From NCBI RefSeq assembly GCF_002563855.1, contig NZ_PDJQ01000001.1, positions 186,001-250,000 of the forward strand: a DNA stretch of 64,000 bases, written 5' to 3'. The notes beneath the pieces are model-generated. The model was not told where the DNA came from, searched no databases, and saw nothing but the letters and a program-made list of their open reading frames with translations. Made by a program: the position numbers and the translations under genes. Shown here in pieces: positions 3 through 13,805 of the stretch. Numbering within the stretch: position 1 is the first letter of the stretch; every line of letters starts with the position of its first letter. Source of the stretch: Tepidiforma thermophila (lineage in GTDB: Bacteria; Chloroflexota; Dehalococcoidia; Tepidiformales; Tepidiformaceae).

Positions 3-383
3 GCCGGGTGCGGGGGATCGAACTCGCTGCAGGCGGCGCGGCTGGCGGCGGAGGCGTGCCGGGCGGCAGGAGTGCGCGAGGTGCTGGTGCTGGGCGGCGC
101 GCCGCCGGCGCGGCAGGAGGCGGCGCGGCTGATGCGGGAAGCGGGCGGACCGCGGCTGCAGTTCGTAGAGGGGGATGTGCGGGTGACGGAGCAGGATGCG
201 AGGGCGGACAAAGCGCGGGCGGATGTGGTGCTGGCGTGGGCAGGGACGCCGCTGCCGCACAAGGTGAGCGACCTCTACCGGCGGCGGGAGGCGGGTGATC
301 CGCCGTTCATCACGGTGCCGACGACGGGGGTGGCGGCCCTCTTCGCGGCGCTGGCCGAACACGCGCGGAACCGCCGCCCGTAG
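3..383 (+). CDS. DUF2325-like protein, C-terminal part (5' end outside window)
   Basis: The frame is open from the first bases of the window and ends at TAG 381-383, so this is the last 126 codons of a longer gene. The visible part reads as an alpha/beta fold: a hydrophobic strand VLVLGG, an Asp-rich middle, the strand [14 protein letters not shown] and the end [16 protein letters not shown]. The order (strand-GG, then a sentence ending in a His-Lys pair before a helix, then a short strand and Gly-Val-Ala-Ala-Leu) resembles DUF2325 proteins, which have no assigned reaction. That family call is by eye and only moderately sure. It lies 25 bases before purE with no terminator between, but purE has its own -10 box. 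Confidence 0.5.
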
Positions 384-396
384 CGCCGGGCGGCCG

Positions 397-402
397 TACA
401 AT
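397..402 (+). promoter_or_regulatory. -10 box TACAAT of purE (leaderless arrangement)
   Basis: TACAAT is followed by exactly six bases and the purE ATG at 409. A transcript starting the usual 6-7 bases after a -10 box would begin at the start codon. No Shine-Dalgarno sequence is visible. The same N6 spacing recurs at seven other genes in the window. Confidence 0.6.
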
Positions 403-408
403 GCGGGC

Positions 409-900
409 ATGGCCGGGGAGGCGCCGCTGGTGGGCATCATCATGGGGAGTTCGAGCGACTGGCCGACGATGCGGCTGGCGGCGGAGGTGCTCGAGCGGTT
501 CGGGGTGCCCTACGAGGCGCGGGTCGTTTCGGCGCACCGGACGCCCGGGCTGGTGACGGAGTACGCCTCGACGGCGGCGGCGCGCGGGCTGAAGGTGATC
601 ATCGCGGGGGCCGGGGGCGCGGCTCATCTGCCGGGGATGACCGCGGCGCAGACCCCGCTCCCCGTCATCGGCGTGCCGATCCAGACGAAGGCGCTTCAGG
701 GGCTCGACTCGCTGCTCTCGATTGTTCAGATGCCGCGCGGCACGCCGGTGGCGACGATGGCGATCGGCGAGGCGGGTGCGGTGAACGCGGCGCATTTCGC
801 GGTGCGGCTGCTCGGCGCGGAGGACGCCGCGCTCCGGGAGCGGGTGGCGGCGTTCATGGCGGAGGAGCGGGACCGCGTGCTGGGCGAACAGCTGGCATGA
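409..900 (+). CDS. purE: PurE, N5-carboxyaminoimidazole ribonucleotide mutase
   Basis: 163 residues, the normal length for class I PurE. It moves the carboxylate of N5-CAIR to C4 to give CAIR in purine synthesis, working as a cytoplasmic octamer. Visible family motifs are GSSSDW at residues 13-18 (substrate phosphate loop), SAHRTP at 41-46 carrying the active-site His, and [11 protein letters not shown] at 67-77. The start at 409 rather than any upstream in-frame ATG is chosen because it gives the family N-terminus and sits six bases after a TACAAT box. The stop overlaps the ATG of purK as ATGA, so the two enzymes of this step are translationally coupled. Confidence 0.96.
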
Positions 901-2015
901 CGGCGCTGCCCCCGGGTTCGACCATCGGCGTCATCGGCGGGGGGCAGCTCGGGCTGATGCTGACCGAGGCGGCGCACGCGCTGGGTTACCGGGTGGCGGC
1001 CTTCACCGACACGGCTGATTGCCCGGCCGCCGCGGTGGCCGACGAGCTGGTCGTCGGGGGGTATACGGACGGGGCGGCGATTGCGCGGTTTGCGGAGCTG
1101 GCGGCAGTCGCAACGGTGGAGACGGAGACGCTGCCGGCAGCGACGCTGACGGCGGTGGGGGAGCGGATGGAGCTGCTGCCGCGGGCGGAGATCATCCTGA
1201 CGACGCAGGACCGGGCGAAGCAGCGGACGTTCACGGCCGGGCTGGGCATCGCGGTGCCGCGGCACCGGATCGTGGCGAGTGCGGCGGAGGCGGAGGCGGC
1301 GGGGCGGGAGCTGGCGATGCCGGCGGTCGTCAAGCGGGCGACGGGCGGCTACGACGGCCGGGGGCAGGCATGGGTGACGGCACCGGGCGAACTGGGGGAG
1401 GCGTGGGCGTCGCTCGGGGGCGGCACGTGCGTGGTCGAGGAGCGGGTGCCGTTCGCGGCGGAGTTCTCGGTCATCGTCTGCCGGAGCCGGGCGGGTGAGC
1501 TGGCGTTCTTCGACCCGATCCGGAACGTGCACCGGGGCGGGATTCTGCGGATTTCGCGCGCGCCGGCGGAAATCCCGGAGGCGTCGGCGGCGACGGCGCG
1601 GGAGTTCGCGCGGCGGTTCGCGGAGGGCGCCGGGCTCGTTGGCATTGCGTGCCTCGAGTGCTACCTGCTGCCGGACGGCGGGGTGCTGGTGAACGAGGTG
1701 GCGGCCCGGCCGCACAACTCGGGGCACCTGACGATCGAGGCGTGCGCGACGAGCCAGTTCGCGCAGCTGGTGCGGATCGTGGCGGGGCTGCCGCCCGGGG
1801 ACACGACGCTGCGGGAGCCGGCGACGATGCTCAACCTGATCGGCGACATCGACGAGGAGGCGCTGGCAGCGCTGGAGGCGGCGTACCCGGGGCGGACGTT
1901 CGTGCACCGGTACGGGAAGGCGCCGCGCCCGGGGCGGAAGCTGGGCCATGTGACGGTGCTTGGTTCGAACGCGGTTGTTCCGCCGGCTGCTCGACCGGGG
2001 TGTGAGATCGGCTAG
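897..2015 (+). CDS. purK: PurK, N5-carboxyaminoimidazole ribonucleotide synthase
   Basis: 372 residues, an ATP-grasp enzyme that carboxylates AIR with bicarbonate and ATP to N5-CAIR, the substrate of PurE encoded just upstream. The N-terminus has the pre-ATP-grasp loop [11 protein letters not shown] (residues 11-21). The ATP-grasp core has [16 protein letters not shown] near 141-157, then an E-x-x-x-P segment (VEERVPF) and the metal-binding end [14 protein letters not shown] near 266-279. The C-terminal domain LGHVTVLG is present. It starts inside the purE stop codon (ATGA). Its stop codon TAG falls inside a TAGAAT -10-like box for the next gene. Confidence 0.96.
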
Positions 2016-8596: not shown

Positions 8597-8884
8597 TCAG
8601 ATGGTGAAGAAGGCGCGCTCGATATGGCCGGGCTCGACGCAGAGGTGGATTTCGGAGCGGAGGGCCATGATGTGGGTATCGTTGGCGGCGTGCTCGGCGG
8701 CCTCTTCGGAGTCGTAGATGGCGAGGCGGGCGATTTCGCCGCTGTCGTCGTGGGGGCGCATCAGGTAGGTGACCTGGCAGCCGGGTGTGGCGGCGACCGC
8801 CTCATCGAGCTTGCGCAGGAGTTCTTCGACGCGGGCATCTTCACCGCGGCGGGGCTTCATGATGGACAGGCGAATGTACGGCAT
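8597..8884 (-). CDS. ABM-like (dimeric alpha/beta barrel) small protein
   Basis: 95 residues. The pattern is that of antibiotic-biosynthesis-monooxygenase or dimeric ferredoxin-like barrels: a first strand YIRLSIMKPRRG, a long helix to KLDEAVAATPG, then strands CQVTYLMRP and IARLAIYDS, and a helix ending in an EIHLCVEPGHIERAFF strand. Such proteins are often cofactor-free oxygenases, heme-binding proteins or stress proteins; no catalytic residues can be assigned. It has its own -10 box and an AGGAG-like site (CCGGAGG). Confidence 0.7.
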   Translation of the reverse strand: MPYIRLSIMKPRRGEDARVEELLRKLDEAVAATPGCQVTYLMRPHDDSGEIARLAIYDSEEAAEHAANDTHIMALRSEIHLCVEPGHIERAFFTI

Positions 8885-8944: not shown

Positions 8945-8972
8945 CGGAACCCCCGCCTGCGCGGGGGTTCCG
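8945..8972 (-). terminator. Intrinsic terminator after the riboswitch-controlled zinc-ribbon gene
   Basis: A perfect 12 bp stem, CGGAACCCCCGC / GCGGGGGTTCCG (8945-8956 with 8961-8972), has a 4 base loop and is followed on the minus strand by TCTTTTC. It closes the zinc-ribbon transcript before the ABM-like gene, which has its own promoter. The unit under the riboswitch is therefore probably monocistronic. Confidence 0.8.
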
Positions 8973-9005: not shown

Positions 9006-9224
9006 TCAGAGCCGGAGCTTGCCGTGGGAGGGCTGGCGGCGGCGCTGCCGCTGGGGCAGGGCAGCCTCTTCGGCGGCGAGGTCGACGGGCGGGCTGGTGA
9101 GCACTTCGTGGACGTAGCCGCACATGATGCAGCTGCCGTAGGTGCCGTGCCAGTCGCGCTCGACGATCATGGAGCCGCGGCACTTGGGGCACGACTTTGG
9201 CGGTGCTTCCTGCAAAGCTGGCAT
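9006..9224 (-). CDS. 72-residue zinc-ribbon protein under c-di-AMP riboswitch
   Basis: 72 residues with two CxxC knuckles: SCPKCRG near residues 11-17 and SCIMCGYVHE near 31-40. They are separated by a short acidic/aromatic loop, so a single zinc ribbon is expected. The C-terminal third is Pro/Gln/Arg-rich and probably disordered. The start is ATG behind GAGGAGGGA. The first 40 residues resemble the many tiny zinc ribbons of Chloroflexota with CPxCGG-x(10-15)-CxxCGY, none with a known job. Nucleic-acid or protein binding is a guess. It is the only gene between a c-di-AMP riboswitch and an intrinsic terminator, which makes it the direct target of that second messenger. Confidence 0.85.
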   Translation of the reverse strand: MPALQEAPPKSCPKCRGSMIVERDWHGTYGSCIMCGYVHEVLTSPPVDLAAEEAALPQRQRRRQPSHGKLRL

Positions 9225-9278
9225 GACGGTAGTTCCCTCCTCTTTCGATGCGGACGTTATGGTGCAGTTCGAGGACAG

Positions 9279-9312
9279 AAAAAAAGACCTCGAAACGAGC
9301 TACCTGCTCGCC
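9279..9312 (-). terminator. Riboswitch expression platform with T-run
   Basis: Downstream of the aptamer on the minus strand, a CGAGC...GCTCG stem and a second CTCG/CGAG stem lead into seven T residues (A-run 9279-9285 on the + strand). CGAGG and CCTCG also flank the T-run, offering an alternative pairing. This fits transcription attenuation, but the folding was not computed. Confidence 0.55.
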
Positions 9313-9313
9313 A

Positions 9314-9436
9314 GGCCTTCCAGACTGCCGACGGGGTTAGCTGACGGGCTCGGGCGGAAGGCGCCCTTGCGGCGGGTGCCGCGTTCGCCCCGGGACGTTG
9401 GGTCCCCCGCTGCGCCGTGCGGCGCACTAGGCAGGT
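9314..9436 (-). ncRNA. c-di-AMP riboswitch (ydaO-yuaA type)
   Basis: Read on the minus strand, the leader carries the conserved parts of the ydaO aptamer in order. They are a 5' P1 strand CCTGCC, a paired TGCGCC/GGCGCA arm, the purine-rich GGGGGACCCA, then GGGGCGAAC, a GCGGC/GCCGC arm, and CCTTCC. The hallmark GAGCCCGTCAGCTAACCCC follows, then GGCAG (P1 partner) and GGAAGG pairing with CCTTCC. The CCGTCAGCTAAC core and the two pseudoknot-forming arms are specific to this class. In known cases ligand binding turns the gene off, usually for cell-wall hydrolases or K+/osmolyte transport; here the gene is a tiny zinc ribbon. Confidence 0.9.
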
Positions 9437-9459
9437 GGTGCGAAACACTGAACGCGCAC

Positions 9460-9483
9460 GTGAACGACGCGAACGCCGTTCAC
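9460..9483 (-). other. Hairpin at the 5' end of the riboswitch transcript
   Basis: GTGAACG (9460-9466) and CGTTCAC (9477-9483) form a 7 bp perfect inverted repeat between the predicted transcription start (about 9484) and the aptamer. It may protect the 5' end. Confidence 0.45.
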
Positions 9484-9490
9484 CTGCCGC

Positions 9491-9519
9491 AAGCTACCAA
9501 CCGGCCGGGAGGCTGTCAA
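9491..9519 (-). promoter_or_regulatory. Promoter of the c-di-AMP riboswitch transcript
   Basis: On the minus strand TTGACA (9519-9514) and TAGCTT (9496-9491) are 17 bases apart. This is the best -35 match in the window and places transcription start near 9484, just before the aptamer. Confidence 0.8.
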
Positions 9520-9582: not shown

Positions 9583-11469
9583 TCACGCGAGGAGGCCGGC
9601 GGTGACTGCGAGGGCGAGTCCCGCCGCGGCAAGACCACAGGCCGGGGCTGCTCCGGGAGTCTCGTCGCGGGCCATGAGCGCGGCGCCGGGGCCTGCGACC
9701 AGGGCGAGGGCGGCGACGAACGCAAGGGGGTCGGCCTCGCCGGGCCCGAAGAAGCGGAGGGCCGGGCCGACGACGAGCAGCAGCACCAGCAGTCCGAACG
9801 CTGCCGCGAGCGAGGCAGCTGCTGTGCCGGGCCGCCAGGAGAAGCCGGCTGCCGCGATGACGGCGAATCCAGTGAGGAGGCCGACGGCGGCACCGGCGGA
9901 CGTGCCGGGGAGCGGGAGAAGCGCGGGCAGCGGACGGCGCGCGGCCGAGATGCGCGCGGCTTCGCCGGGGATGAGCTGCCCGGCGGCGAGGCGGGATTGC
10001 ACGAAGGTGTCCCGGGCGGAGGCGTCGGCGGCGAGGAGCAGGCGGACATCGGCCGGGCCGAAGTCGGCGTCGTCCTGGATCTCCTGGCGGAGTTCCTCGA
10101 GGGCAGCGCGGCGCTGCTGGAGGTCGTTGGCGTAGGCGTAGCGGTCGGCTGCGCCGGTGGGAAGGAGCCCGAGGTCCTGGACGATGGCTGCCGTGCGGAC
10201 GGGGTCGGCCTCGGCGGTGCGCAGGAGCTCGTGCCGGGCGTGGGGGCCGAGGGTGAGGGCGAGGACGACCGCGGCGAGGGCAGCGATGCCGGCGGCCGGG
10301 ACGGCGTTCGCCGGACGGGGCCGGGCGGGGGCCGTGGCGAGGGCCACGGCGAAGCCGGCCTCGCCGGGGCGGGCCCAGGTCTCGACGTCGATGGCGGCGG
10401 CGGGAACGGGCGGGGCGAAGGGGACGAGGGCGAGCCTGGCGACGACCGGGCCTGCGGCCGCGCCGGCTGCGAGGGCCAGGCCGTAGAGGCCGGCAGCGGC
10501 GGGAGCGAACCCTTCGCCGGAGAGTTCGCGGCCGAGCGCCCAGGCGACTGCGAGGGCGAGGGCAGCGGCCGCCCAGGGGAGGAGGCGCCCGGGGAGGCGG
10601 TCAGCGCCGGTGGCGGGGAGGATGCCGCCATGGGCGAGCACGAGGCCGGCGGCCAGGCCGGCCCCGGCCGCGCCGGCGGCCCATCCGGCTCCGGCGGGAA
10701 GGAGCACGATGGCGGCACCGACCACGGCGAGGGCTGCGATAACGGCGGCGAGCCAGGCGGCCAGGAGCGGGGCGGATGACCGGCCCGACGCTGCGAGGAC
10801 GGCGCCGGGGATGAGGGCGATGGCGGCGGCGGCGAGAACGCTGGCGGTGACGACAAGGGGGAAAGCGCTCCATGCCGCATCGCCGGAGAGGGCGGAGAGT
10901 TCGCCGGACGCGAGGAGGCCAGCCATGGCCGCCGCTGCGACTGCGCCGCCGGCCAGCGGCCCGGCGGCCGGGCGGGAGGCCCCGGGGGCGGGGCCGAGGG
11001 CCGCGACCAGGGCCGCGAGGCCGGCCCCACCGGCGAACGGCGCGATGAGCGATGCCGCGGCCCATGGGCCTTCGCCGGCGACGCGGCTGGCCAGACCGAA
11101 GAGCCCGGCGCCGGCCGCAAGCGCAAGGGCGGTGGACGCAAACGGAGTGACCACGGCGGGGCGGCCGTCATCGGCGTCGATGGGGGCGGCAAGGAGGCTG
11201 GCAAGGGCGAGCGCTGCGAAGCCGGCGAGGAAAGCTCCGCCGGCCCAGGCGGCGCGGTCGAGTTCGCCGGCGTAGCCGCCGACAAAGGCGGCAAGGGCGA
11301 TGGTCCCGGCAAGGCCGGCGGCGACGTGAGCCAGGGCGAGTTCGACCAGGGCGGGGCCCCAGGCGGCGGGACGGGGGACCGCCGGGTCGCGGGCGGCGAG
11401 TGCGCAGACGACGGCTGCTGCGACGGCGACGACGGCGGAGATGGGGATGAGGGCCTGTGCGAGGAGCAT
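9583..11469 (-). CDS. Degenerate membrane-pyrophosphatase paralogue (pseudoenzyme) with periplasmic insert
   Basis: 628 residues, almost wholly Ala/Leu/Gly/Val-rich, with about 14-16 membrane segments. By eye it aligns end to end with the HppA encoded 106 bases upstream. Examples: AGLYGLALAAGAAAGP (326-341) with AGLYGIALAAVGMLSP of HppA (414-429); GGAVAAAAMAGL then AW-SAFPL (174-204) with GSIVAAMALTT then NWDSKAFALP; and the last four helices in the same order. Every catalytic loop is gone: no DVGADLVGKVE, no DNVGDNVGD, no DPFKD. Residues about 408-518 form a charged helical insert at a loop that faces outside in pyrophosphatases. It cannot hydrolyse pyrophosphate; a structural or regulatory partner role is inferred. 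Its visible codons look less C-biased than those of hppA. The ATG at 11469 is chosen because it begins the first hydrophobic helix. Confidence 0.75.
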   Translation of the reverse strand: MLLAQALIPISAVVAVAAAVVCALAARDPAVPRPAAWGPALVELALAHVAAGLAGTIALAAFVGGYAGELDRAAWAGGAFLAGFAALALASLLAAPIDADDGRPAVVTPFASTALALAAGAGLFGLASRVAGEGPWAAASLIAPFAGGAGLAALVAALGPAPGASRPAAGPLAGGAVAAAAMAGLLASGELSALSGDAAWSAFPLVVTASVLAAAAIALIPGAVLAASGRSSAPLLAAWLAAVIAALAVVGAAIVLLPAGAGWAAGAAGAGLAAGLVLAHGGILPATGADRLPGRLLPWAAAALALAVAWALGRELSGEGFAPAAAGLYGLALAAGAAAGPVVARLALVPFAPPVPAAAIDVETWARPGEAGFAVALATAPARPRPANAVPAAGIAALAAVVLALTLGPHARHELLRTAEADPVRTAAIVQDLGLLPTGAADRYAYANDLQQRRAALEELRQEIQDDADFGPADVRLLLAADASARDTFVQSRLAAGQLIPGEAARISAARRPLPALLPLPGTSAGAAVGLLTGFAVIAAAGFSWRPGTAAASLAAAFGLLVLLLVVGPALRFFGPGEADPLAFVAALALVAGPGAALMARDETPGAAPACGLAAAGLALAVTAGLLA

Positions 11470-11574
11470 GGCGGGAGGGCTCCGCGAGGAGGGTGGCGGA
11501 GGGCGCAGCATAGAGAAGCGGCCGCCGGAGCTCAACCGGCGGCCGCCGTTCGTGCGGGCGAAGGGGAACCGGCG

Positions 11575-13641
<2,067 letters not shown>

Positions 13642-13805
13642 CTCGTCCCCCGGTAAGCATGTTTGGCCGCGCGCCCCCACCGGTGCGCGGCCGTGCCAAA
13701 ACCGGCCGAATCCTACCAATCGGCGGTGTTACGGGGAATTTCGTTTGTTCACGGGAAACGAACGGCGGTGCACACTCTGGGCGAGGACGTCGAGGGAGGT
13801 TCGTG

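Follow-up and report, generated by a model that had tools for sequence, protein, structure and literature searches.

The locus raises a simple question: can a c-di-AMP riboswitch have a tiny zinc-ribbon protein as its target, and, if so, when would this protein be made and what might it act on? The targets reported for this riboswitch class in passages of PMC9337991 and PMC7288161 are genes of K+ uptake, osmolyte synthesis or transport, and the cell wall, whereas here the gene behind the aptamer encodes a small zinc ribbon. The sequence-only reading of the locus as a riboswitch with an expression platform, followed by a zinc-ribbon gene and then a terminator, is supported by the RF00379 match, the open reading frame at 9224-9006 and the hairpin at 8972-8945. 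Coordinates refer to the window, that is, the whole 64,000-nucleotide stretch of DNA that was analyzed. On the minus strand the elements follow each other in the order TTGACA, TAGCTT, RF00379, hairpin with U7, AGGAGGG, 72-aa reading frame, and GC-rich terminator:

9514-9519, minus strand: -35 box TTGACA, read directly, very likely part of a real promoter
9491-9496, minus strand: -10 box TAGCTT, 17-nt spacer, read directly
9311-9443, minus strand: aptamer of the c-di-AMP (ydaO/yuaA) riboswitch, RF00379 (cmscan, 63.5 bits, E 2.2e-12)
9356-9362, minus strand: predicted pseudoknot 5' strand GCCUUCC in the loop of the last hairpin, complementary to 9315-9321
9315-9321, minus strand: predicted pseudoknot 3' strand GGAAGGC, read directly, overlapping the base of the terminator
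9285-9318, minus strand: terminator hairpin of the expression platform, read directly, -16.0 kcal/mol including the U-run
9279-9285, minus strand: U7 run 3' of the terminator hairpin, read directly
9235-9241, minus strand: ribosome-binding site AGGAGGG, 10 nt 5' of the ATG, read directly
9006-9224, minus strand: gene of the 72-aa predicted zinc-ribbon protein, CPKC-x16-CIMC with C-terminal tail RQRRRQPSHGKLRL (reading frame, alignment, AlphaFold2)
8945-8972, minus strand: GC-rich terminator hairpin 3' of the ribbon gene, read directly
8597-8884, minus strand: ABM-domain gene beyond the terminator (PF03992, 35.6 bits against a cut-off of 23.1)

The riboswitch and its host

The sequence-only reading had staked its claim of a conserved ydaO-yuaA aptamer on a covariance-model hit, and such a hit was found: the RF00379 match spans the full model (positions 1-134) and exceeds the curated gathering score of 38. 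No other Rfam family reached its gathering score anywhere in the window (cmscan). A diadenylate cyclase, proposed as a further check, is present in the genome (DAC domain PF02457, 148 bits within a 281-aa open frame), and the host is thus counted as a maker of c-di-AMP. The genome of this Tepidiforma (Chloroflexota; 2.74 Mb, single contig) contains six RF00379 aptamers in all. Four of the other five outscore the window copy, reaching up to 92.2 bits, and these five precede an MFS permease, a second small zinc ribbon, a glycosyltransferase, and unknown genes. Thus, the earlier description of the zinc ribbon as the sole target holds for the window transcription unit, but not for the genome.

A pseudoknot between a loop and the 3' part of the aptamer is a feature of the c-di-AMP riboswitch class. 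The corresponding pairing varies on both sides among relatives, being GCCUUCC/GGAAGGC in the window and CCUUUC/GAAAGG, CUGAUC/GAUCAG, CUGGAUCG/CGAUCCAG, and CUGUUC/GAACAG in other loci. In the 53 leaders analyzed, the longest pairing has a mean of 6.0 Watson-Crick pairs, compared to 5.0 for shuffled 3' strands; in 13 of the 66 leaders the anchor was not located, and in some of the 53 the longest pairing is a different one. In single-sequence folding the whole window leader folds no better than its shuffles (z -0.41), which can occur at 75% GC, and the evidence for structure is therefore drawn from the covariance model and covariation. On sequence grounds the element is confirmed as a c-di-AMP riboswitch, with aptamer and platform read from the letters and ligand binding predicted.

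Promoter, expression platform, and transcription unit

The promoter was originally called good. Its letters are as stated (TTGACA-17-TAGCTT), but the -10 box agrees with TATAAT at 3/6 positions, and a strict promoter and terminator scan of the window lists none, presumably because of this -10 box and of a bulge in the terminator stem. The scan was replaced by a comparison of relatives. An exact TTGACA is found 5' of the aptamer in 59 of 65 related leaders (loci from the best 80 of 81), which makes the promoter very likely real, and TAGCTT or TAGCGT stands at the corresponding position in most members of the family.

The T-run expression platform, too, is where it had been placed, as a hairpin with the sequence AGGCCUGGCGAGC-AGGUA-GCUCGUUUCGAGGUCU followed by U7. 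A run of at least five T occurs in 21 of 66 related leaders (paired loci from the best 80 of 81), with stems that are unlike between lineages; in loci L105 and L139 it does not immediately adjoin the hairpin. In the remaining 45 of these 66, no T-run is present, and control may be exerted by translation or in another way.

In the window, the ribbon is indeed the only gene before a strong terminator. A hairpin with a T-rich tail 3' of the ribbon was found by a simple scan in just 27 of 80 related loci (best 80 of 81), and some relatives may therefore co-transcribe the ribbon with the monooxygenase-like (ABM) gene, which in many of them lies within ~200 nt downstream. On the other side, directly 5' of the riboswitch promoter, is a 650-aa membrane-type reading frame without a Pfam family (9583-11535, minus strand), and two genes 5' of the riboswitch the same strand encodes a membrane-bound inorganic pyrophosphatase (PF03030, 887 bits, 11575-13719, minus strand).

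The zinc-ribbon protein

Ten other family copies encode an identical protein, yet differ from the window gene in 13-26 of 72 codons, all differences being synonymous and none non-synonymous. Judged by this codon pattern, the 72-aa reading frame is a coding gene. The protein consists of two CxxC knuckles, an acidic linker, and the C-terminal tail RQRRRQPSHGKLRL, of which RRRQPSHGKLRL hardly varies. An alignment of 27 relatives shows no variation at R61-G68, R71, and L72 and almost none at K69 and L70; the knuckle cysteines of CPKC-x16-CIMC are invariant in the alignment as well. AlphaFold2 confidently predicts a three-stranded ribbon at residues 18-42 (pLDDT 86-92 at 11-40) and a short helix at 47-54, and gives the tail low confidence. 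The invariant cysteines together with the predicted beta ribbon identify a two-knuckle zinc-ribbon fold, with predicted zinc binding. The scan of named genomes was seeded with the tail and a CGY motif, so the constancy of the tail is partly an effect of how the loci were found; in less biased profile searches, full-length matches (>110 bits) are clearly set apart from all others (<55 bits).

Within its own family the ribbon is present in 34 of 37 genomes, as 35 copies with 81-100% identity. As a yardstick, the ribosomal protein S12 of the window's genome was searched in the same genomes. Among the 29 family members with both proteins whole, identity is 92-100% for the ribbon and 78-99% for S12, the latter figure being lowered by the variable C-terminal end of S12; the ribbon is the more conserved protein in 28 of them, and the two are equal at the printed precision in one. 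In four more distant genomes outside the family the order is reversed (54-67% for the ribbon, 75-77% for S12), so the extreme constancy is a feature of the family.

The ribbon does not reach the cut-offs of Pfam (PF08271, 21.9 against 29 bits; PF02150, 18.2 against 25.2) or of any NCBIfam model, and a fold search found no PDB match at E <= 0.001. Weak sequence or fold matches include TFIIB, RPC10, Elf1, RPB9, eIF2-beta, and ribosomal zinc ribbons. The best Pfam and PDB neighbors, the Zn_Ribbon_TF/TFIIB, RPB9, and RPC10 ribbons, all fall below curated cut-offs, and the window protein differs from them in being bacterial, 72 aa long, and equipped with its own nearly invariant tail. Neither a paralogue nor a shared tail was found elsewhere in its genome, where the codon pattern of the tail is present once. 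Carriage by phages was considered and rejected, since IMG/VR contains no relative. Our best guess for the partner of the ribbon, predicted from the fold type, the basic and nearly invariant tail, and the constancy of the protein, is RNA polymerase or the ribosome; given the lack of a PDB match at the above threshold, this idea draws on very weak similarity.

Recurrence of the aptamer-ribbon pairing

Absence of the ribbon behind the riboswitch in related genomes had been named as evidence against the pairing; the opposite was observed. In the family, RF00379 is located directly 5' of the ribbon and on the same strand at 32 of 35 copies, the exceptions being G009, G015, and the second copy of G013. 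From the scan of named genomes the best 80 of 81 ribbon loci were taken, one of which (L093) is from Tepidiforma flava (NZ_CP115149.1, 2,767,986 bases). RF00379 lies 5' of the ribbon on the same strand in 66 of these best 80 (19/20, 20/20, 20/20, and 7/20), at a distance of 23-111 nt from the start codon as called (L119 was read by hand). Outside the family of the window (L106-L164), 46 of 59 loci from the same best 80 of 81 have it. Fourteen of the best 80 lack an upstream aptamer; nine of these, rechecked at E 0.1, still yield none, and 11 look like one related group (L153-L160, L162-L164). Sampled genomes of family f21, among them G056, which corresponds to L156 of this group, carry one RF00379 elsewhere.

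A sample of 118 genomes from the class contains 36 with the full-length ribbon and 45 with RF00379. The aptamer is present in 36/36 ribbon genomes versus 9/82 ribbon-less ones (Fisher p 3e-22, uncorrected for relatedness). It lies <=250 nt 5' of the ribbon in 26 of the 36, and the spread of these over 10 families makes the pairing hard to ascribe to chance. Genomes with any RF00379 carry 1-7 copies, and 26 of the 122 listed switches precede the ribbon. In a scan of 301 genomes of the phylum, the full-length ribbon (>120 bits) occurs in seven, each of them a member of this class; a further 33 genomes gave matches of <=41.8 bits, which in nearly every case cover no more than the cysteine part.

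In six loci (L109, L110, L121, L122, L124, and L142) a divergent cobalamin riboswitch is located just 5' of the c-di-AMP riboswitch of the ribbon, near 2470-2690 on the minus strand, with a position near 1560-1628 (minus strand) also noted for L121.

Regulon and novelty of the target

Other RF00379 targets assigned by Pfam or NCBIfam include an MFS permease, SulP with a STAS domain, an MscS channel, an Mrp/Nuo-type antiporter subunit, a family 2 glycosyltransferase, a KamA-like radical SAM protein (aminomutase-like), a cytidylate kinase-like protein, and several family-less proteins. Trehalose-6-phosphate synthase (OtsA) is encoded behind RF00379 in three loci, in one of them fused to a phosphatase. 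This content fits the function of c-di-AMP riboswitches in osmotic shock and in the cell wall, as described in passages of PMC9337991 and PMC7288161. Judged by this company, a role of the ribbon in the osmotic or cell-wall stress response is very likely. The proposed tie to osmotic or cell-wall physiology thus stands at the level of the regulon (trehalose synthesis, MscS, transporters), and does not extend to a direct link with the ribbon itself. In loci L209 and L255 the c-di-AMP riboswitch is followed by the gene of a 74-76-aa protein, then by what we take, from its sequence, to be dnaX, and further on by a presumable recR.

In its full-length aptamer, pseudoknot, terminator platform, and host with a diadenylate cyclase, the element resembles the rest of the RF00379 class. 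In Dehalobacter, a tandem Na+/c-di-AMP riboswitch halts transcription in an osmotic context of the beta-lysine type (passages of PMC9337991). The c-di-AMP switch itself and a KamA-like target are shared with the family studied here; unlike the tandem, the window shows no Na+ aptamer in the Rfam scan, and the ribbon is no osmolyte enzyme. No paper in which zinc ribbons or Tepidiforma are connected to c-di-AMP riboswitches was found among titles, the starts of abstracts, and passages of PMC9337991, PMC7288161, PMC3766115, and PMC7266159. Hence, the riboswitch belongs to a known class and the zinc-ribbon target is new within this literature, outside which lie the original target lists (Block 2010, Nelson 2013), where the ribbon may be mentioned as a hypothetical gene. 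With the pairing, a hyperconserved and uncharacterized protein family acquires a regulator, a physiological context, and a condition under which its expression can be tested, and c-di-AMP control is extended beyond transporters and enzymes to tiny, dedicated zinc proteins. Should RNA polymerase or ribosomes indeed be what the ribbon acts on, it would constitute a global arm of c-di-AMP signaling in Chloroflexota, undescribed in the literature searched.

Polarity of the switch and alternative explanations

The window element is likely an OFF switch acting by transcription termination. At high c-di-AMP, in a cell with enough water or K+, the ligand would shut the P1 helix of the aptamer, the terminator hairpin with U7 would form, and transcription would end 5' of the ribbon gene. 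When c-di-AMP drops under hyperosmotic, low-K+, or cell-wall stress, the 5' strand of P1, ACCUGC, would be freed and would pair with GCAGGU of the terminator as a predicted antiterminator, so that the ribbon would be made alongside the rest of the osmoprotection regulon. The ribbon protein would then act on a partner that is itself highly conserved, with RNA polymerase and the ribosome as the most likely candidates, and would do so via its zinc ribbon and its basic, almost invariant tail RRRQPSHGKLRL. When the 3' arm of the terminator is absent or blocked, the predicted fold does pair ACCUGC with GCAGGU (-69.8 vs -80.4 kcal/mol); this predicted antiterminator shuts out P1, matching what an OFF switch requires. 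As a general rule the ACCUGC/GCAGGU antiterminator was rejected, being confined to the genus of the window and a few neighbors, and the polarity therefore leans on the published class members, which turn genes off (passages of PMC9337991 and PMC7288161). Taken as a whole, the scheme of a c-di-AMP riboswitch and a one-gene unit, OFF control by termination, and a ribbon acting on RNA polymerase or the ribosome appears probable; the aptamer, platform, reading frame, their conserved pairing, and the regulon are read from the DNA, and ligand binding, OFF polarity, and protein function are predicted.

An ON switch would be allowed by the overlap between the pseudoknot and the terminator, where the 3' strand at 9315-9321 covers the first terminator bases (9318-9315). 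A ligand-stabilized pseudoknot, with GGAAGGC held by GCCUUCC, would take the 5' base of the terminator and turn the ribbon on at high c-di-AMP, and the pseudoknot indeed covaries across lineages. However, the overlap amounts to ~4 nt, leaving most of the terminator stem outside it, the published riboswitches are of the OFF type (passages of PMC9337991 and PMC7288161), and the same aptamer precedes osmolyte genes, which are expected to be off at high c-di-AMP; we regard the ON polarity as distinctly improbable. The aptamer might also be a degenerate, non-functional relic inherited from one ancestor in front of a housekeeping zinc protein. The modest score of the window copy relative to most others in its genome (63.5 bits against up to 92.2) and the retention of the ribbon without an upstream aptamer in the 11-locus group and some single genomes would agree with such an origin, but it is extremely unlikely in view of the aptamer core, pseudoknot, promoter, and terminators, which persist, with compensatory changes, in 10 families, and of the RF00379 held by all 36 full-length-ribbon genomes of the class sample.

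Two further alternatives concern the target. The real regulated unit could comprise the ribbon, as a minor first gene, and the ABM gene behind it. Such a next gene is present in the window and in ~20 of 80 loci from several families (counted by eye; best 80 of 81). Nevertheless, most of these best 80 of 81 loci have another next gene, a strong terminator separates the two genes in the window, and it is the hyperconserved ribbon that adjoins the aptamer in 66/66 paired loci (best 80 of 81), which makes this explanation very unlikely. Alternatively, under the same riboswitch control, the ribbon may serve in zinc storage or as a metal or Fe-S accessory protein rather than regulate RNA polymerase or the ribosome, as hinted by NCBIfam CxxC-CxxC models (biotin synthase auxiliary BsaP, rubrerythrin-like domain) that match weakly, below cut-off. 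But the knuckles are no more constant than the tail RRRQPSHGKLRL; this speaks for a macromolecular partner, and the accessory function seems unlikely. We thus retain the OFF switch in front of the ribbon gene as the preferred explanation.

Other small zinc ribbons behind the riboswitch

The second small zinc ribbon of the same genome is a separate case of this kind:

G000:C1:578255-578428 (L240:302-475, plus strand in L240): gene of a tiny predicted zinc ribbon, 58 aa, CPEC...CPGC, behind the riboswitch at 578004-578141

The 58-aa ribbon is unrelated to the 72-aa one. A search at E <= 5e-12 gave a single copy in each of 21 family genomes, always downstream of RF00379 on the same strand (21/21, by eye). 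We also considered 100 regions 3' of c-di-AMP riboswitches, a non-random sample with the switches before the 72-aa ribbon left out. A small reading frame with two CxxC pairs is found within ~550 nt in 18/100 on the sense strand versus 0/100 on the other strand. These 18 comprise the 58-aa type, a type of ~110-160 aa with CxxC...CNxCA, and singles in L213 and L297. The third type comes from other families of the class (L233, L235, L281, L286, L291, and L261).

These tiny ribbons (58-aa MLRP type, CPYC type of L213, and CNxCA type) share with the 72-aa protein the same riboswitch, the small size, and the CxxC pairs; they differ in having no RRRQPSHGKLRL tail and by eye are alike only in their cysteines. 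One may tentatively imagine that c-di-AMP acts in Dehalococcoidia for the most part via small proteins, with several unrelated families of tiny zinc ribbons, each with its own riboswitches, which would be made at low c-di-AMP and bind RNA polymerase or the ribosome via nearly invariant short motifs. Such a two-step stress cascade, from messenger to small protein, is not known elsewhere; on present data we hold it for a possibility of limited probability. In locus L079 (genome G038), a more distant, tail-less ribbon is located behind a 99.9-bit aptamer. The single example in L213 is a 60-aa CPYC...CIQC ribbon (289-468, plus strand) behind the sole c-di-AMP riboswitch found in genome G054.
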